NCBI RefSeq assembly: GCF_022524345.1
Contig: NZ_JAKWJU010000002.1
Location: 5,322,001-5,386,000, forward strand
Direction: 5' to 3'
Origin: Streptomyces marispadix
GTDB taxonomy: Bacteria; Actinomycetota; Actinomycetes; Streptomycetales; Streptomycetaceae
DNA: 64,000 nt
Numbering within the stretch: the first letter of the stretch is position 1; every line of letters starts with the position of its first letter. A model generated the notes under the pieces. That model saw nothing but the letters and a program-made list of their open reading frames with translations, did not search any database and had not been told where the DNA came from. Made by a program: the position numbers and the translations under genes. This document shows, one piece after another, positions 14,303 to 23,274 of this stretch.

Positions 14303-16390
14303 ATGAGCAAGCCCGCCCTCACCGATCTCCTGCACGCCGCCGTCACCGCCGTCGGCGGTACGGAACGGCCTGGTCAGGTAGCCATGGCCGAAGCCGTCGC
14401 CGAGGCGGTCGAAAGCGGCACCCATCTGCTGATCCAGGCGGGCACCGGCACCGGCAAGTCTCTGGGCTATCTCGTCCCCGCGCTGGCGCACGGGCAGCCC
14501 GTGGTGATCGCGACGGCCACGCTCGCGCTCCAGCGTCAGCTCGTCGAGCGCGACCTGCCGCGCACGGTCGAGGCGCTGCATCCGCTGCTGCGCCGCCGCG
14601 CCGCGTTCGCCATGCTCAAGGGCCGCTCCAACTATCTGTGTCTGCACCGTCTGCACGAGGGCGTTCCACAGGAGGAGGACGAAGGGCTCTTCGATCCCTT
14701 CGAGAGCGCTGCCCCCACCTCCCGCCTCGGCAAGGACCTGCTGCGGCTGCGCGACTGGTCCGACGAGACGGAGACGGGCGACCGCGACGATCTCCGTCCG
14801 GGCGTCTCCGACCGCGCCTGGTCGCAGGTCTCGGTCTCCTCCCGCGAGTGCCTGGGAGCCGCCAAGTGCGCCTACGGAGCCGAGTGCTTCGCCGAGGCCG
14901 CACGTGAACGGGCCAAGCTCGCCGAGGTCATCGTCACCAACCACGCACTCCTCGCCATCGACGCGATCGAGAACGCACCGGTGCTGCCGCCTCACGAGGT
15001 CCTGATCGTCGACGAGGGCCACGAACTGGTCTCCCGCGTCACCGGCGTGGCCACCGGCGAACTGACGCCCGGCGGTGTCAACCGCGCGGTGCGCCGCGCC
15101 GCCAAGCTCATCGACGAGAAGAGCGCCGACCGGCTCCAGACGGCCGCCGAGAGCTTCGAGCGCCTGATGGAGCTGGCACTGCCCGGACGTCTCGAAACGG
15201 TCCCCGAGGACCTCGGGTACGCACTGGCGGCGCTGCGCGACGCCGCCCGCGCCGGCATCACGACCCTCGGCAACACCCGCGACAAGTCGGTGCAGGACGA
15301 GGACGCCGTACGCAAACAGGCCCTGGCCTCGCTGGAGAACGTGCACGACGTGGCCGAACGGGTCGTCGAGGGCTCCGAGTTCGACGTGATCTGGTACGAG
15401 AGGCACGACCGCTTCGGCGCCTCGCTGCGCGTCGCACCGCTCTCGGTCTCGGGGCTGCTGAGGGAGAAGCTCTTCAGCGACCGGTCGGTCGTCCTCACCT
15501 CGGCCACCCTCAAACTGGGCGGCGACTTCGACGGCGTGGGAGCCTCACTGGGCCTCGCCCCGGAGCGCGTGCTCGGCGACGACTCACCCGGCGGCGACGC
15601 CGGACAGCAGCAGGAGACGCCCCGTTGGCGCGGCCTGGACGCGGGCTCTCCCTTCGACTACCGCAAGCAGGGAATCCTCTACGTCGCCGCGCATCTCGCG
15701 CCGCCCGGGAGGGAGCAGTCCCGACGGGACATGCTCGACGAACTCACCGATCTGGTCGGCGCCGCCGGCGGTCGCACGCTCGGGTTGTTCTCCTCGATGC
15801 GTGCCGCACAGACGGCCGCGGAGGAGCTGCGCGGCAGGCTCGGGGTGCCGATCCTGCTTCAGGGCGAGGAGACGCTGGGCGAGCTGATCCGCCGCTTCGC
15901 GGAGGACCCGCAGACGTGTCTGTTCGGCACGCTCTCGCTGTGGCAGGGCGTCGATGTGCCGGGCCCGAGCTGCCAGTTGGTGGTCATGGACCGCATTCCG
16001 TTCCCCCGGCCCGACGATCCGCTGATGAGTGCCAGGCAGAAGGCGGTCGAGGAGAACGGCGGCAACGGCTTCATGGCGGTCGCCGCCACACATGCCGCGC
16101 TGCTGATGGCACAGGGCTCCGGCAGGCTCGTGAGGGCGTCGGGGGACAGGGGCGTGGTCGCGGTGCTCGACCCCCGGCTGGAGCGGGCCCGTTACGGCGG
16201 ATTTCTGCGGGCTTCGATGCCCGGCTTCTGGTACACGACGGACCGCGACCAGGTGCGGCGTTCGCTCGCGGCCATCGACGCCGCTGCGAAGGAATCAGCG
16301 GAGGAACCAGCGAAGGAAACGGCCAGGGATTCGGCCAAGGAGCCGTCGGAAGCCTCAGAGGACGTGGCGGAGGCAGCGGCCGAGGTGTAG
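14303..16390 (+). CDS. DinG-family ATP-dependent DNA helicase
   Basis: A 695-residue superfamily 2 helicase of the DinG/XPD type, acting on forked or RNA-containing DNA structures. Walker A is in QAGTGTGKS (about residue 45-53), the DEAH-equivalent is VDEGHELV, SATL marks motif III, and the C-terminal motor shows LFGTLSLWQGVDVPG and GSGRLVRASGDRG. Spaced cysteines around SSRECLGAAKCAYGAECF resemble the iron-sulfur cluster region of the XPD/DinG group. The last 35 residues are a Glu/Ala/Lys tail. ATG 14303 has only a weak ribosome site. It is convergent with the ATPase gene, 36 bases away. It could act in the LexA regulon, but I saw no LexA box at its start. Confidence 0.85.
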   Translation: MSKPALTDLLHAAVTAVGGTERPGQVAMAEAVAEAVESGTHLLIQAGTGTGKSLGYLVPALAHGQPVVIATATLALQRQLVERDLPRTVEALHPLLRRRAAFAMLKGRSNYLCLHRLHEGVPQEEDEGLFDPFESAAPTSRLGKDLLRLRDWSDETETGDRDDLRPGVSDRAWSQVSVSSRECLGAAKCAYGAECFAEAARERAKLAEVIVTNHALLAIDAIENAPVLPPHEVLIVDEGHELVSRVTGVATGELTPGGVNRAVRRAAKLIDEKSADRLQTAAESFERLMELALPGRLETVPEDLGYALAALRDAARAGITTLGNTRDKSVQDEDAVRKQALASLENVHDVAERVVEGSEFDVIWYERHDRFGASLRVAPLSVSGLLREKLFSDRSVVLTSATLKLGGDFDGVGASLGLAPERVLGDDSPGGDAGQQQETPRWRGLDAGSPFDYRKQGILYVAAHLAPPGREQSRRDMLDELTDLVGAAGGRTLGLFSSMRAAQTAAEELRGRLGVPILLQGEETLGELIRRFAEDPQTCLFGTLSLWQGVDVPGPSCQLVVMDRIPFPRPDDPLMSARQKAVEENGGNGFMAVAATHAALLMAQGSGRLVRASGDRGVVAVLDPRLERARYGGFLRASMPGFWYTTDRDQVRRSLAAIDAAAKESAEEPAKETARDSAKEPSEASEDVAEAAAEV

Positions 16391-16426
16391 GCGACCGCTC
16401 GCCGTTCCGGCCGCGTGAAGCGCGGG

Positions 16427-17050
16427 TCAGCGAGGGGCGAGCCTCCCCTCCCGGCTCGCCGCCCCGGGCGCTTCTGATTCCCCGCTCGGCGCGGACTCCT
16501 CCTCGGCGGACGGCAGTTCGCACCAGACGGCCCTGCCTCCGGAAGCCGGCGCGTAGTGCCCCCAGGCGCGGCTCAACGTGTCCACCAGGTGCAGCCCACG
16601 GCCCACCTCGTCATGCGGAGCCGCCCTTCGCAGCCGGGGGTGCAGTCCCTTCGAGCCGGGGTCCCAGACCTCTATGAGCAGCGCGTCCTCGTGGCGGACC
16701 TTCAGCACGATCTGCTGTGCACGCTCCCGCTTCGCACCCGCGTCACCGGCACTGCCGTGTTTGACGGCGTTGGAGACCAGTTCGCATGTAAGCAGAGCCG
16801 CCGTCTCGCTCAGCGCGCCCAAGCCCCGTTCGTTCAGCACGCTGGTCACATGGCGACGGGCCGCCGACACCGCTTCCGGAATCGGAGCCATGAATTCCAC
16901 CAGTTCGAAGAGTTTCTCCCCGGCGCAGCACGCGTCGTCAGACACCGCGTGCGGCAGCGGCCCGGCGAAAGCCGCCGTGGTCTCCCGACAGCCGACGACA
17001 TCGGGTGATTCTTCCTCAGCTACGTCGGTGGGGCGCCGACATATGGCCAT
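16427..17050 (-). CDS. RsbW-like ATP-binding protein (HATPase, anti-sigma/regulatory type)
   Basis: A 207-residue protein with a GHKL ATPase fold like the many Streptomyces RsbW/SpoIIAB-like proteins, which act as serine kinases or anti-sigma factors. The N box is LVSNAVKHG, the G1 box VWDPGSKG, and the G2 box EVGRGLHLVDTLSRAWG. ATG 17050 is preferred: GGAG lies at a good distance, and an upstream GTG at 17101 has none. No sigma factor, anti-anti-sigma or SpoIIE-like phosphatase gene is adjacent, so its partner is unknown. An inverted repeat lies about 90-120 bases upstream. Confidence 0.75.
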   Translation of the reverse strand: MAICRRPTDVAEEESPDVVGCRETTAAFAGPLPHAVSDDACCAGEKLFELVEFMAPIPEAVSAARRHVTSVLNERGLGALSETAALLTCELVSNAVKHGSAGDAGAKRERAQQIVLKVRHEDALLIEVWDPGSKGLHPRLRRAAPHDEVGRGLHLVDTLSRAWGHYAPASGGRAVWCELPSAEEESAPSGESEAPGAASREGRLAPR

Positions 17051-17747
17051 GGGGGTGCTCCGTGGCTTTCGTTGCAGCGGGATCTCTTCCCGCCACTCCA
17101 CACCGTAGGCACATCGGGCATTCGTAGGAAGTGGTCACAGTGCCCGCACGGAAGCAGCGACAGGGCACTGTGCACGACCCGTGCGACTCTGGCACTTCGC
17201 ACGCGTGACCGGGGGCGGAAGCCCTCCAGTGCAGTCTGCACAGGCACTCCGCCGCGGCCCGGCACATTGCCCACTGCTGCAACTCGGGCGCCGCGCCTAT
17301 CGTTTGGGAAACACGCGCGCAGCCTGCCGTCAAGGCTCCAGTACGAATACAGGCCGGACATCGCACGAGGGGTGGAGCGAGGAGCGAGGTTTCACCGAGA
17401 ACGGAATTCGGTGCCGCCGGGGGAGCGGTGCCGCGATTCCTCACCGGAGCAGATTCGGCCCGTGCCGCATTCGCGGCCGGCTGCGGTCGGCACGGCCTTT
17501 GTCTCCCCTATGCCCGTTTCCCGTACACCGCATTACGCGAAGCGGATCGACGATGCCGTACGACGGGGCGGAGTGCGGGGGCGGAGCAGAACGCCGAACT
17601 CCCCTTCCGGCGCCCGCAGTCGAACGGAATTCGTTCGCACCCGACAGGAAACGGCATCGGCCCCCGGACATCGTGAACGTCCCCGTACCGTGGCCTTCCC
17701 GGCCGTCGCCCCGGACGGCGCGCAGAGCAGCGAGGAGTCCTCACCAC
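17051..17747. other. 697-bp divergent intergenic region (ATPase / hydantoinase operon)
   Basis: I see no convincing gene here; open frames crossing it have no recognisable product. It holds an inverted repeat with 10-bp arms at 17136-17172 (CACAGTGCCC and its complement, 17-base spacer), nearer the ATPase gene, and a 17-bp palindrome at 17621-17637 nearer the hydantoinase gene. Confidence 0.6.
17621..17637. promoter_or_regulatory. Palindromic operator candidate upstream of the hydantoinase operon
   Basis: CGAACG-GAATT-CGTTCG is a perfect palindrome with 6-bp arms, 110 bases before the hydantoinase start. The GAAC to GTTC gap is 7 bases, not the 4 of a LexA box. A regulator such as the operon's own PucR protein could bind it; this is inference. 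Confidence 0.4.
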
Positions 17748-19349
17748 ATGCGGATCGGCATCGACGTCGGCGGAACGAACACGGACGCCGTCCTGATGGA
17801 CGGCGACTCCGTGGTGGCCGACGCGAAGGTCACCACGACCCCCGATGTCACGGACGGCATCATGCAGGCGATACAGGGCCTGCGGCAGCGCCGTGACTTC
17901 GACCCGGGGGCGGTCACCGGCGTGATGCTCGGAACCACCCACTTCATCAACGCCATCGTCGAGGGGCGCGATCTGTCCCCGACAGCCGCCATACGTCTGG
18001 GACTTCCCGCCACCCAGTCGCTGCCGCCGCTGGTGGGCTGGCCCGGCAACCTGGTGTCCGCGATCGGCGATCACACCTACCTCTGCCACGGCGGGCACGA
18101 GTACGACGGACGGGTCATCTCCCAGCTCGACCCCGACGAACTGCACAGGATCGCCGACGAACTCGCCGCCGAGGACGTCCGATCGGTCGCCATCACGTCC
18201 GTCTTCTCCCTCGTCAACGCAGAGTTCGAATTACGGGCCGCGGAGATCCTCGCCGAACGGCTGCCCGGACTGCGGGTCAGCCTCTCCCACGAGGTCGGCC
18301 GCACCGGCCTGCTGGAGCGGGAGAACGCCACGGTCATCAACGCCGCGCTCGGCGAACTGGCCGAGCGCATCTGCGGCGGCATGGTGGCGATGCTGCGCTC
18401 CATCGGCCTGGAAGCGCCGCTGTACCTCAGCCAGAACGACGGCACGCTCATGGGCGTCGACTACGCCCGCCAGTACCCCGTCATGACGTTCGCCTCCGGG
18501 CCGACCAACTCGATGCGGGGCGCGGCCTATCTCTCCGGCGTGGACGATTGCGCCGTCGTGGACGTCGGGGGCACCACCACGGACGTCGGCATGCTGCACC
18601 GGGGGTTCCCGCGCGAGGCGAGCACCGAGGTGAGCGTCGGCGGCATCCGCACCAACTTCCGCATGCCCGACGTGCTTTCCTTCGGCGTCGGCGGCGGCAG
18701 CCTCGTACGGCAGGACTCCGCCCGTGTCACCGTCGGCCCCGAGAGCGTCGGATACCGGCTGCGGGACGAGGCGCTCGTATTCGGAGGGGAGACCCTCACC
18801 GCCACCGACCTCGTGGTGGCCGCGGGCCGCGCCGAGATCGGCGAACCGGAACGAGTCGCGTCCCTGGACCGGGACCTGGTGGAGGCCGGTCTCGCCTATG
18901 CGACGGAGCGGATCACCGGGACGATCGACCGGATGCGGACCAGCAGGGCACCGGTCCCCGTCGTGCTGGTGGGAGGCGGCAGCGTGCTGCTGCCCGAGTC
19001 GATCCCGCTGGCGTCCTCGATGATGCGGCCCGAGCAGTTCGCCGTCGCCAACGCCGTCGGTGCCGCGATCGCCCAGATCAGCGGGGACGTGGACCGTATC
19101 TTCGCGGTGCAGCCGGGGCAGCGGGACGCGGCGCTGGACACCGCCAAGCAGGAGGCCACGGACCGTGCGCTGATCGCGGGCGCGACCCCCGGCACCGTGG
19201 AGATCGTCGAGGTCGAGGAGATCCCCCTGGCCTACCTGCCGGGCAACGCGACACGCATCCGCGTCAAGGCGGTCGGCGACCTCTCCCGTGACCGCTCCCG
19301 TGACCCCTCCGAGCCCGCCTCCGCCGCACACGGGCACGGGGCCGGGTGA
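17748..19349 (+). CDS. Hydantoinase/oxoprolinase-family protein (HyuA-like)
   Basis: A 533-residue member of the ATP-dependent hydantoinase/oxoprolinase A family, which opens five-membered lactam or hydantoin rings. The N-terminal GIDVGGTNTDAVL and the later DVGGTTTDVG are the two phosphate-binding loops of the actin-like fold; GTTHFINAI, ERENATVINAA and LSQNDGTLM are also typical. No HyuB partner follows; the next two genes are DUF917 proteins, an arrangement seen with stand-alone hydantoinases. ATG 17748 has GAGGAG upstream. Codon 162 (18231-18233) is TTA, very rare in this DNA, so translation should depend on the bldA leucyl-tRNA and be limited early in growth. The stop overlaps the next start (GTGATG). 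Confidence 0.88.
   Translation: MRIGIDVGGTNTDAVLMDGDSVVADAKVTTTPDVTDGIMQAIQGLRQRRDFDPGAVTGVMLGTTHFINAIVEGRDLSPTAAIRLGLPATQSLPPLVGWPGNLVSAIGDHTYLCHGGHEYDGRVISQLDPDELHRIADELAAEDVRSVAITSVFSLVNAEFELRAAEILAERLPGLRVSLSHEVGRTGLLERENATVINAALGELAERICGGMVAMLRSIGLEAPLYLSQNDGTLMGVDYARQYPVMTFASGPTNSMRGAAYLSGVDDCAVVDVGGTTTDVGMLHRGFPREASTEVSVGGIRTNFRMPDVLSFGVGGGSLVRQDSARVTVGPESVGYRLRDEALVFGGETLTATDLVVAAGRAEIGEPERVASLDRDLVEAGLAYATERITGTIDRMRTSRAPVPVVLVGGGSVLLPESIPLASSMMRPEQFAVANAVGAAIAQISGDVDRIFAVQPGQRDAALDTAKQEATDRALIAGATPGTVEIVEVEEIPLAYLPGNATRIRVKAVGDLSRDRSRDPSEPASAAHGHGAG
18231..18233 (+). promoter_or_regulatory. TTA leucine codon (bldA-dependent) in the hydantoinase gene
   Basis: In frame, encoding L162 in EFELRAAE. 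In Streptomyces TTA is read only by the bldA tRNA, which makes such genes growth-phase dependent. Confidence 0.8.
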
Positions 19350-20452
19350 TGCCCTGGGACCTCGCCGCCAGCGACCTCTCCGACCTCGCCCTGGGCGCCG
19401 CGCTGCTCGGCGCGGGCGGTGGCGGCGACCCGTATCTGGGGAAGTCGATGGCCGCCGACGCCCTCGCCTCCACGTCAGGCCGGGTGCGCTTCCTCGACCC
19501 CGACGAGCTGGACGAGGACGCCCTCGTCGTCACCACGGCCATGCTGGGTGCACCGACCGTACTGGTGGAGAAGCTGCCGAGCGGCAAGGAAGTGGCCGTC
19601 GCGCTGCGGGCGTTGGAGCGTCACCTCGGCCGGCCGGTCACCGCGACGATGCCCGCCGAGTGCGGCGGCATGAACTCGATGGTCCCGCTGCTGGCGGCGG
19701 CGCGGCTCGGCCTGCCCGTCGTGGACGCCGACGGCATGGGCCGCGCGTTCCCCGAGCTGTCGATGACGACGTTCGGCGCCCACGGTCTGTCCGGATCGCC
19801 CATGGCGGTCGCGGACGAGCACGGCAGCGTGGCCGTGGTCGACGCCGGCGCGGACAACCGCCGCCTGGAGTCCCTGGCCCGCGCCCTCGCCGTCAGCATG
19901 GGCGCCTCGGCGTCCATGGCGATCTACGCCATGAGCGGTGCCGACGTACGCCGTACCGCGGTGCCGCGCACCGTGAGCACCGCCGTACGGCTGGGACGGG
20001 CGGTGCAGGAGGCACGGCAGTGCCACCGCGATCCGTTCACGGCCCTCGAGGAGACGCTGACCCGCACGGTGTACGAGTACGGAAGGACCCTCTTCGAGGG
20101 CAAGGTCGTCGACGTGGAGCGTGCCACGACGGACGGCTTCGCGCGTGGCCGAGCCCGGATCGCAGTCGAAGGCACCGCTGACGAGGGCGAGTTGGTCTTC
20201 CAGAACGAGAACCTGGTGGCACGGATGGCGGGCCGCACCCTCGCCGTCGTCCCCGATCTCGTCACGGTCCTGCACGCGGAGTCCGCCGAACCGGTCACCA
20301 CCGAGGGGCTGCGCTACGGGCAGCGCGTCCGGGTCTTCGCGATCTCCGCGCCGCCTCCGCTGCGCACCCCCGAGGCGCTGGCCGCCTTCGGCCCGGGGGC
20401 CTTCGGCATCGAGGAGAACTACCGTCCTCTCGCGCCCGGTTCGGGCGGCTGA
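19346..20452 (+). CDS. DUF917 family protein (S-methyl-thiohydantoin desulfurase type), copy 1
   Basis: A 368-residue DUF917 protein. The family is now named after S-methyl-thiohydantoin desulfurase activity, and members sit beside hydantoinases. Typical segments are GAALLGAGGGGDPYLG near the N-terminus, TATMPAECGGMNSMVPL, GLPVVDADGMGRAFPEL, RTLFEGKVVDVER and FQNENLVARM. It is translationally coupled to the hydantoinase (GTG 19346 or ATG 19349 overlapping TGA). A second, diverged copy follows 123 bases on. Together with the hydantoinase it probably desulfurises and opens a thiohydantoin-like ring; the actual substrate is unknown. Confidence 0.82.
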   Translation: MMPWDLAASDLSDLALGAALLGAGGGGDPYLGKSMAADALASTSGRVRFLDPDELDEDALVVTTAMLGAPTVLVEKLPSGKEVAVALRALERHLGRPVTATMPAECGGMNSMVPLLAAARLGLPVVDADGMGRAFPELSMTTFGAHGLSGSPMAVADEHGSVAVVDAGADNRRLESLARALAVSMGASASMAIYAMSGADVRRTAVPRTVSTAVRLGRAVQEARQCHRDPFTALEETLTRTVYEYGRTLFEGKVVDVERATTDGFARGRARIAVEGTADEGELVFQNENLVARMAGRTLAVVPDLVTVLHAESAEPVTTEGLRYGQRVRVFAISAPPPLRTPEALAAFGPGAFGIEENYRPLAPGSGG

Positions 20453-20534
20453 GAGCCTGCTGAGAACTCTCTGTCGGTCAACTGCCCCTGACCGGCGGGG
20501 AGTCGGAACAGTGAGGCATATGTCATTCCAGCCC

Positions 20535-20548
20535 TGGAACCGATTCCA
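20535..20548. promoter_or_regulatory. Palindrome TGGAA-CCGA-TTCCA, operator candidate
   Basis: A perfect 5-4-5 palindrome in the 123-base gap between the two DUF917 genes. It overlaps the place expected for a -35 element of a possible leaderless promoter (CACAAT at 20564-20569, six bases before the ATG at 20576). An internal, regulated start of the second half of the operon is inferred. Confidence 0.4.
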
Positions 20549-20575
20549 TGAGTTGATCGCCAGCACAATGGTGGC

Positions 20576-21640
20576 ATGTGGCAGATCACACTCGACGACG
20601 TGCCCGCGCTCTCCAAGGCAGCGATGCTGCTCAGCGCGGGCGGCGGGGGCGGTACAGGCACCGAGTTAGTGGAGCCGATCCTGCGGCGGGCGCTGCGGGA
20701 GCACGGCCCCGTGGAGGTGGTGCACCCCTCCGAACTTCCTCCTGGTAGCTGCGCGGTGCCGGTCGGCTTCGTGGGTTCTGGCACGGTCATGCACGAGAAG
20801 CCCTACGAGGGCAGCGAGATCACCCGCGCGATTCGCGGGGTCGAAGGACATACGGGCCTGACGGTGCAGGCGGTCGTCGGCATCGCGATGACCGGCATCA
20901 TGGCCGTGGTCCCCGTCATCGCCGCCGCGCAGCTCGGTCTGCCGCTCGTGGACGCGGACGGCACGGGACGGGGTGTGACCAAGCTCAGCCAGACGACGCT
21001 GACGCTGGCCGGAATCGACCTCACGCCCGCGGCGTTCACCGCCGACAAGGGGTCCAACCTCCTTGTGGACGGGGTGAACAGCGCCGACGCTGAGTCGGTC
21101 ATCCGGCTGTCCATGCCCGCGATGGGCGGCTGGGCGGGCATGGCCTGGCGGCCGTTGACCACCGACGAGATCATCAAGGGCATGCAGGTCGGCTCGTACT
21201 CCAGGGCGATCGAGATGGGACGGCTGCTCGAAGAGCGGGACCGGGAGGCGCTGGCCGCGCGCTACCAGGCCCGAACTCTCTTCGAAGGCAAGATCGTCGA
21301 GGTGCCCCGGCGGCACCTGGGCCAGTTCCCGGCGGGGACCGTCGTAGTGGAGCACGCCGAGAAGCCCGACCGTGCGCTGCGCATCGAGATGCAGAACGAA
21401 TACCTCGTGGCGCTCGAGGACGGGAAGATCGTCGCCTGCGTGCCCGACCTCATCTGCGTTCTGGAGCAGGAGACCGGCACCTGCCTGACTGCCGAGCGGG
21501 TGCGGTACGGCCTGTGGGTCGAGGTGCTGGCGCTGCCCTGCCACCCCCGGTGGCGCAGCGCGGACGGGCTGGAACTGCTGGGCCCCCGTGCGTTCGGCTA
21601 CGACATGGACTACATACCGCTTGAGGGAACCACCGGATGA
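20576..21640 (+). CDS. DUF917 family protein (S-methyl-thiohydantoin desulfurase type), copy 2
   Basis: A 354-residue DUF917 protein, diverged from copy 1 but with the same landmarks: SAGGGGGTGTEL, MAVVPVIAAAQLGLPLVDADGTGR, RTLFEGKIVEVPRR and MQNEYLVALEDGKIVACVPDLI. Two diverged copies in one operon suggest either a hetero-oligomer or two steps on related substrates. Codon 31 (20666-20668) is TTA, the second such codon of this operon. No good ribosome site precedes ATG 20576, consistent with a leaderless start. The stop overlaps the PucR gene (ATGA). Confidence 0.82.
   Translation: MWQITLDDVPALSKAAMLLSAGGGGGTGTELVEPILRRALREHGPVEVVHPSELPPGSCAVPVGFVGSGTVMHEKPYEGSEITRAIRGVEGHTGLTVQAVVGIAMTGIMAVVPVIAAAQLGLPLVDADGTGRGVTKLSQTTLTLAGIDLTPAAFTADKGSNLLVDGVNSADAESVIRLSMPAMGGWAGMAWRPLTTDEIIKGMQVGSYSRAIEMGRLLEERDREALAARYQARTLFEGKIVEVPRRHLGQFPAGTVVVEHAEKPDRALRIEMQNEYLVALEDGKIVACVPDLICVLEQETGTCLTAERVRYGLWVEVLALPCHPRWRSADGLELLGPRAFGYDMDYIPLEGTTG
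20666..20668 (+). promoter_or_regulatory. TTA leucine codon (bldA-dependent) in DUF917 copy 2
   Basis: In frame (L31 in GTELVEP), near the 5' end, the position where a bldA requirement is most effective. Confidence 0.8.
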
Positions 21641-23199
21641 CTTCGCCCTGGCAACCGGTCACGGTCCGCGTGCTGTGCGGACTCGAGGGCCTGGTGGGCG
21701 CCCATCTTGCCGCGGGGCAGGCGGGACTCGACGCCGAGGTGCACTCGATCGAGGTCGTCTCGACGCTGGCCAGCGCGGAGTCGGTGACTTCCGGCGCCCT
21801 CGTCATCGCAGCTCCGGGTGAGACGGAGCTGGTGGTCCTCGACATGATGCTCAGCGCCGTACGAGCGGCAGGTGCCGTCGGTTTCGTGGTCACCAAGGGC
21901 CCGCATCTGATCGGCTCCGCGACCAGGCTGGCCGACAAGCTGGGCATGCCGCTGCTCGTCGCCACCTTCAAGGACCCGCTCCAGCTCGCCCGGCAGCTCG
22001 ACCGCGTCGTCCACGCCCCCGAGCTGGTACGTGCCGACGTACTGAGCCAACTCGGCCGTCAGATGCGGCGGCGCCACGCAGAGCCCGGCCCGGTGCTGGA
22101 GACCCTCGCGCGCATGCTGAGCGCACGGGCAAGCCTGGTCTGCCCCGTCGGCACCGTGCTGGCGGGCTCCACCCTGGAGCTGCCAGACGGCGCGCTGGCC
22201 GACCCCTCGCCGCACACGGTGCCCGGTGCCGGCAGCCGCGACGGCGACCTGGTGCTCGTTCCCGTCGTGCTCGACAGCCAGGCGGGACCGGACGTCTGGG
22301 TCGCGGTGCAGCTACCGCCGGGCCCGACGACGTGGACGACCACCGCGGAACAGGCCGCGATGCTCGCGGCAGCCGCGATCACCGGCTGGGCCGCACGGCG
22401 GCGCCTGGAGGGCGAGCGCGAGCTGCACGAACGGCGCGATCTGCTCTCGGAGTTGCTGAAGAAGCCGAGCCATCCCGACCGTGAGGTGACGGAGGGCGGC
22501 CTGAAGCTCGGCTGGCAGGTGCACGGCTGGCACATCGGCGCACATCTGCGCTCCATGGGCATGCCCGGCGACCGGCGGCGCCGTATGGCGGACCTGCTGA
22601 ACGCCGCGCTGTCCGAACAGGGGCTCAGCGGCCACCTCGTGGAGCGAGGCGAGGGCTGGGCGTTCTGGGTCACCTCCGACCGCGAGCCCGCCCGCGCCTC
22701 GTCGAGGGACATCGTCAAGCCCCTGCGGGCGGCGCTGACTTCACTGTCCGACGAGGCCCCCCTGATCGCGGGGGTGGGCCGCCCGCGCGAGGGCCCGGAG
22801 GGGCTGGCCCGTACTCTCACCGAGGCACGGCAGGCGTGCCTGCTGGCCGGCACGAGAGCACGCGGCGTGCGCGTCGCCCACATCGACGAGCTGGACCTTC
22901 AGCAACTCCTCGCGGACTGGTACAGCCAGGAGTCGTTCCAGACCTATGCGCGGCAGATCCTCAAGCCGCTCTACGACCGTGACGACATGGAGCTGATCCG
23001 CACGGTCGAGGCGTACCTCGAACACGAGTCGTCCGCGTCGTCGACGGCTGCGTATCTGGGCGTGCACCGCAACACCGTCGCGGAGCGCATCGCACGCGTC
23101 GAGAGCCTGCTCGACGTGAACCTCGCGCTCCCCGACCACCGGCTCGTGGTGCAACTCGCCTGCCGCACACTGCGGTTCGGCGGCGGCCAGGCGTCCTGA
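21637..23199 (+). CDS. PucR-family transcriptional regulator
   Basis: A 520-residue PucR/CdaR-type regulator. The N-terminal half (about 1-170) is the purine-catabolism-regulator-like sensing domain; the C-terminus holds the PucR helix-turn-helix (STAAYLGVHRNTVAERIARVESLL). Regulators of this family usually control catabolic genes for nitrogen heterocycles or sugar acids in response to a pathway ligand. ATG 21637 overlaps the stop of the second DUF917 gene by four bases, so it is the last gene of the hydantoinase operon and the obvious candidate to control it. Candidate sites are the palindromes at 17621 and 20535. Confidence 0.85.
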   Translation: MTSPWQPVTVRVLCGLEGLVGAHLAAGQAGLDAEVHSIEVVSTLASAESVTSGALVIAAPGETELVVLDMMLSAVRAAGAVGFVVTKGPHLIGSATRLADKLGMPLLVATFKDPLQLARQLDRVVHAPELVRADVLSQLGRQMRRRHAEPGPVLETLARMLSARASLVCPVGTVLAGSTLELPDGALADPSPHTVPGAGSRDGDLVLVPVVLDSQAGPDVWVAVQLPPGPTTWTTTAEQAAMLAAAAITGWAARRRLEGERELHERRDLLSELLKKPSHPDREVTEGGLKLGWQVHGWHIGAHLRSMGMPGDRRRRMADLLNAALSEQGLSGHLVERGEGWAFWVTSDREPARASSRDIVKPLRAALTSLSDEAPLIAGVGRPREGPEGLARTLTEARQACLLAGTRARGVRVAHIDELDLQQLLADWYSQESFQTYARQILKPLYDRDDMELIRTVEAYLEHESSASSTAAYLGVHRNTVAERIARVESLLDVNLALPDHRLVVQLACRTLRFGGGQAS

Positions 23200-23274
23200 C
23201 CGCATACCCGGGCGCACTCACGTCGCCACTCGTCCTGACCGGGCGCGGGCCGCGTGCCGGGGGAGCGCACGGCG

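Follow-up and report, generated by a model that had tools for sequence, protein, structure and literature searches.

A short HyuA, two DUF917 proteins and a PucR regulator between dinG and lexA of Streptomyces marispadix: a putative ATP-dependent hydrolase with a possible enzyme-derived sensor

The window analysed here, a stretch of 64,000 nucleotides from Streptomyces marispadix (contig NZ_JAKWJU010000002.1, positions 5,322,001 to 5,386,000), holds between dinG and lexA four genes for a HyuA-type ATPase subunit, two DUF917 proteins (DUF917-1 and DUF917-2) and a PucR-type regulator. What would a HyuA do with DUF917 proteins at its side instead of HyuB, and what is the second DUF917 copy for? 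The reading that we favor, at a probability of roughly 42%, is that the dinG-lexA interval has received a small catabolic operon, in which HyuA and DUF917-1 form the enzyme, and DUF917-2 and PucR an enzyme-derived sensor.

The operon and its place in the genome

The four genes are real, and Pfam matches confirm the families (HyuA, two times DUF917, PucR) that a first-pass annotation had assigned to them from the letters of the window. The features are as follows (window coordinates, strand, basis in brackets):

16293..23267, no strand: inserted segment (the match to the dinG-lexA locus of S. abyssalis ends at 16292 and restarts at 23268)
16427..17050, minus: HATPase_c_2 protein, divergent from hyuA (likewise a neighbour of the operon in both nearest relatives)
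17748..19349, plus: HyuA-type ATPase subunit, short form, 533 aa (Pfam domains)
19349..20452, plus: DUF917-1 with S-Me-THD N and C domains, class alpha (PF06032 193.9 bits, PF20906 199.5 bits)
20453..20575, no strand: gap of 123 nt between DUF917-1 and DUF917-2 (gene coordinates)
20576..21640, plus: DUF917-2, class gamma (PF06032 116.1 bits, PF20906 183.9 bits)
21637..23199, plus: PucR-type transcription regulator with GGDEF_2 and HTH_30 (HTH_30 62.8 bits, GGDEF_2 51.4 bits)

HyuA scores 134.8 bits with Hydant_A_N and 98.8 bits with Hydantoinase_A, and it has the hallmark columns of short HyuA intact throughout (96 of 96); at its C-terminus Hydant_A_C was absent in a Pfam profile search (E ≤ 1e-3). 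It should be noted that the presence of Hydant_A_C is a soft feature of HyuAB, because only one (L051) of two full-length HyuA proteins scanned contains it, that of L048 giving no match at E ≤ 1e-5. In both DUF917 proteins both Pfam domains are above the cut-off (27) over the full length, which makes them members of the S-Me-THD/DUF917 family, and the divergence of the two copies noted earlier is borne out by sequence comparison and by the tree considered below. The N-terminal PucR domain (PF07905) of the regulator reaches 28.1 bits versus a cut-off of 33.5.

The coupling of the genes by overlapping starts and stops, as first described, is found at two of the three junctions (1 nt for HyuA/DUF917-1 and 4 nt for DUF917-2/PucR) but not between DUF917-1 and DUF917-2, which are 123 nt apart. 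The part of this gap nearest the DUF917-2 start is partly kept in the two nearest relatives, S. abyssalis and Streptomyces sp. WMMB 322. Before this start, a conserved non-coding stretch (20514-20576) has GGCATATGTC and CACAATGGT common to three genomes and may serve as an internal promoter or operator. Several GTGCA/TGCAC-like words are conserved in three genomes in the region that separates hyuA from the HATPase gene (17100-17330), a candidate for shared control. The HATPase_c_2 gene itself (61–63% identity to its counterparts in S. abyssalis and WMMB 322; dN/dS 0.35–0.44) evolves faster than the operon genes.

The first-pass annotation had described dinG and lexA as direct neighbours in S. 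coelicolor and had taken the block and the ATPase gene to be inserted. Comparison across genomes agrees on both points: dinG directly adjoins lexA in all 35 other lexA loci (from 29 of 60 other genomes of the genus, where the locus was fetched, and from six further genomes) and, with WMMB 322 added, in 36 of 36 genomes. In S. abyssalis and WMMB 322, dinG-lexA is undivided, and the inserted piece, from the HATPase gene through the PucR stop, matches a site elsewhere in each genome. The flanks of the block there resemble neither one another nor those in the window, and so each of these three related genomes has the block at a place of its own. Of 392 genomes of the genus, 25, that of the window among them, have DUF917-2 relatives (E ≤ 1e-10), and only one of these besides the window's own is close (86%).

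The partnership of short HyuA and DUF917

Sections of PMC6061476 describe oxoprolinase and caprolactamase as phosphorylating with their A subunit and hydrolysing with their B subunit. HyuA of the window resembles that of such HyuAB enzymes (ATP-dependent hydantoinase/5-oxoprolinase/caprolactamase) in its N-terminal and central ATPase domains with their motifs intact. It is unlike them in lacking a C-terminal domain match and in standing in an operon with DUF917 in place of HyuB. The absence of a HyuB partner from the operon had been seen before and holds: the single PF02538 (HyuB) match in the genome (C2:3249189-3250772) is about 2.1 Mb away.

Short HyuA/DUF917 units are not unique to the window but widespread, and clusters with the same enzyme pair, often with a transporter, are found in bacteria and archaea. 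A sample of named loci was drawn by similarity to DUF917-2: at least 544 candidates were confirmed and the best 80 retained, a choice that biases the sample toward DUF917-2-like proteins. A short HyuA is present in 75 of these best 80, and in 74 of the 75 it lies within 300 nt of DUF917 on the same strand, which is why DUF917 seems to take the place of HyuB; HyuB itself, as judged by similarity to one exemplar, is near 4 of the best 80. The search in the reverse direction, with HyuA alone against 396 genomes of the phylum (E ≤ 1e-90), matched 17 genomes including that of the window and gave 23 loci in the 16 others. DUF917 adjoins HyuA in all 22 loci with full context, the 23rd being cut by a contig end. 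It is probable that HyuA and DUF917 together are one enzyme.

The likely chemistry is read from the partner genes. Of the best 80 named loci, 62 have transporter genes within 5 kb (NCS1 in 34, peptide-type binding protein in 28) and 12 have an Asp/Glu/hydantoin racemase, all counts being lower bounds from similarity to a few exemplars. In annotated plasmid relatives these partners recur, rarer companions being AroM (two), an M20 aminoacylase (one) and an isoaspartyl peptidase with a dipeptidase (one). The opening of small cyclic amides is a reading of these transporters, racemase, AroM, aminoacylase and peptidases, and on balance we consider a cyclic amide to be the substrate class. To this extent the idea of a heterocycle-type catabolic unit put forward in the first-pass annotation has stood. 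Counting against the favored reading, the one NCS1 protein examined from a related operon (L112) scores 93.5 bits with cytosine permease versus 25 bits with the hydantoin permease Mhp1. At another locus of the same genome (L185, C2 near 648 kb) there are an NCS1 permease and, nearby, a racemase-like gene of the Asp/Glu/hydantoin type (28–37% to three exemplar racemases). In sections of PMC11055893, DUF917 proteins are described as predicted hydantoinases enriched in cyclodipeptide-oxidase gene clusters and, as of 2024, as "not ... experimentally characterized."

The window differs from these clusters in several respects. In its two orthologous loci (L059, L060) neither NCS1, nor a peptide-type transporter, nor a racemase was matched within 5 kb, and the window block is flanked only by dinG, the HATPase gene and lexA. 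The window unit has a single HyuA and DUF917 proteins of classes alpha and gamma only.

By analogy with HyuAB, a phosphorylate-then-hydrolyse mechanism is expected for the window pair, on the basis of the same sections of PMC6061476. HyuA, an actin-like ATPase, and DUF917-1 would then constitute an ATP-dependent enzyme that hydrolyses a small cyclic amide such as a hydantoin, a cyclic imide or a cyclic dipeptide. HyuA would phosphorylate the ring amide as in 5-oxoprolinase, and DUF917-1, replacing HyuB, would let water open the phosphorylated ring.

DUF917 classes and linkage to PucR

The DUF917 tree contains 129 of 189 domains, those remaining after an 80% identity cut (3 of 192 matches were left out as too short). 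It separates the paralogues into three or more classes that combine differently from locus to locus, which speaks against the fixed pair of two DUF917 copies considered at first. DUF917-1 belongs to class alpha and DUF917-2 to class gamma, class beta being absent from the window; that the two copies are of different classes is new. Gamma forms a clade of 34 rows (SH-aLRT 97), which, its branches being long, may in part be a long-branch grouping with an unsure internal order. All 28 rows adjacent to PucR (less than 700 nt between the matched stretches) are in gamma versus none of the 95 other rows, and 6 of the 34 gamma rows are not PucR-adjacent. The adjacency label requires 4 changes on the tree versus 25.8 in shuffles. 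DUF917-2 is a member of this PucR-linked class: it lies within the 34-row clade and adjoins PucR.

The linkage reappears in fresh loci, in which the class was assigned by profile score and some of which share a genome or lie on plasmids almost identical to one another: 12 of 13 gamma proteins are PucR-adjacent versus 1 of 33 others, and 7 of 8 versus 1 of 19 when only those less than 80% identical to a tree row are counted. Against the reading, L221 is PucR-adjacent and yet scored as "other" (389 vs 396 bits), the tree row closest to it, L057, being gamma; L222 contains a gamma row without PucR adjacency; and the PucR match of L051 is weak (52 bits). Gamma is found with alpha alone, with beta alone or with both. 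Kribbella, Microtetraspora and an Actinobacteria MAG have the order HyuA-DUF917-DUF917-gamma-PucR, and other actinobacteria have one DUF917 fewer.

The classes also differ in their hallmark residues, a Glu present in 96% and an Asn present in 98% of the 189 domains, whose conservation suggests a functional role. DUF917-1 keeps both (Glu104/Asn109). In DUF917-2 and its two orthologues, the near-invariant Glu is replaced by Ala and the Asn by Met, and in this clade the nearby GG and MGRAFP motifs are changed along with them. Within the tree, the Glu is missing from 7 of 34 gamma rows and from 0 of 95 others, the Asn from 3 of 34 and from 1 of 95. The 34 gamma rows average 3.2 hallmark deviations and the other 155 domains, among which some near-copies of gamma rows remain, 0.37. 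With the Glu kept in 27 of the 34 gamma rows and the Asn in 31, the majority of gamma proteins may still be enzymes, and for this reason a sensor role of gamma is tentative. DUF917-2 is under strong purifying selection and about as constrained as HyuA (dN/dS 0.12–0.15 versus 0.11–0.17; PucR 0.16–0.17; DUF917-1 0.22–0.28). Its predicted fold is complete (mean pLDDT 94.4) and matches 2o3i.

The role of DUF917-2

The sensor reading of gamma was led to by loci outside the window. In 16 of them, gamma and PucR form a cluster with a diverged HyuA (453–1302 codons stop to stop), in which 37–64 of the 96 hallmark columns are intact. None of the 16 proteins has kept the phosphate-2 motif, 14 have a gap at the adenosine-site GGG and 9 retain a later GGG, as counted in an alignment of fixed length that may put single columns out of place. 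Pfam scans of two of these proteins gave no match at E ≤ 1e-5. On the HyuA tree (64 rows, three of them long HyuAs), the diverged proteins have long branches and require 2 changes versus a shuffled mean of 11.3. In 7 of the 16 loci, all of the genus and from seven genomes (L048, L051, L053, L230, L232, L233, L234), the trio adjoins a complete HyuA/HyuB pair, and gamma is the sole DUF917 in the 14–17 kb fetched. In L232 and L234, the copy that the profiles assign to gamma is matched better by DUF917-1 than by DUF917-2. With a broken HyuA at its side and a HyuA/HyuB pair next door, gamma is hard to fit as a further HyuA/DUF917 catalytic subunit. The window block, with its one HyuA, has no such paralogue.

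As judged from families, neighbours and residues, DUF917-2 would most likely bind the substrate or product without turnover and pass the signal to PucR, encoded by the overlapping gene, which would then turn the operon on. We assign the sensor role to DUF917-2 tentatively. Somewhat speculative is the wider proposal that actinobacteria have a class of substrate sensors built from dead or dying HyuA/DUF917 copies, in which gamma, joined at some loci by an ATPase-dead HyuA paralogue, would form a complex with PucR and control HyuA/DUF917 or the neighbouring HyuA/HyuB; the window would hold the short form (gamma and PucR). A precedent for the logic is DhaQ-DhaS of Lactococcus, where a degenerate enzyme paralogue is the co-activator of the adjacent regulator. 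The protein families are unrelated, and what is shared, an enzyme paralogue turned sensor beside a regulator, is an analogy only.

The first-pass annotation had instead suggested a hetero-oligomer or two related steps; over both, a sensor role for the second copy is favored by the tree, by its lost residues and by its linkage to PucR. A hetero-oligomer of DUF917-1, DUF917-2 and HyuA, with DUF917-2 as a silent structural or substrate-binding subunit and PucR merely as the last gene of the operon, we hold to be rather unlikely. It would explain why DUF917-2 is strongly constrained despite the hallmark loss, and many clusters without PucR do have two or more DUF917s behind one HyuA (Rhizobium, Devosia, Haloferax); indeed, at least two DUF917 matches are present in 62 of the best 80 named loci (of at least 544). 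However, none of the 95 non-gamma rows has lost the hallmark Glu, and gamma pairs with alpha, beta or both and is the sole DUF917 beside HyuA/HyuB in seven loci of the genus. Such varying company indicates that it is not the fixed partner of one subunit.

That DUF917-2 is active with altered chemistry, on a product or tautomer from the first step, is improbable: purifying selection, the complete predicted fold and the hallmark residues kept by most gamma proteins would agree with it, but in the window clade Glu, Asn, GG and MGRAFP are altered jointly.

Least probable is the desulfuration of a thiohydantoin or S-methyl-thiohydantoin in an ergothioneine-type breakdown, also raised at first, for although the only NCBIfam matches of both DUF917s are two desulfurase families, the scores of at most 104 bits (NF058529, 103.6 for DUF917-1 and 56.7 for DUF917-2; NF058532, 98.4 and 93.5) are far under the equivalog cut-offs of 440 and 450, respectively, a scan of 48 relatives gave no E better than 1.6e-41, and the window operon has no sulfur gene. 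In the Streptomycetaceae strain NBC_01309, OsmC-family and PLP cysteine-synthase-family genes (L176, 11676-13207) lie within an NCS1-HyuA-DUF917-DUF917-PucR operon; they would suit sulfide release and are a possible hint of it in this relative. Exemplars of cysteine synthase and OsmC were matched near none of the best 80 named loci (of at least 544).

The findings indicate that DUF917, and not HyuB, is the partner of this type of HyuA, and they set the PucR-linked DUF917 copies apart from the rest. If the gamma DUF917 is a sensor, its bound ligand would name the substrate of the neighbouring enzyme.
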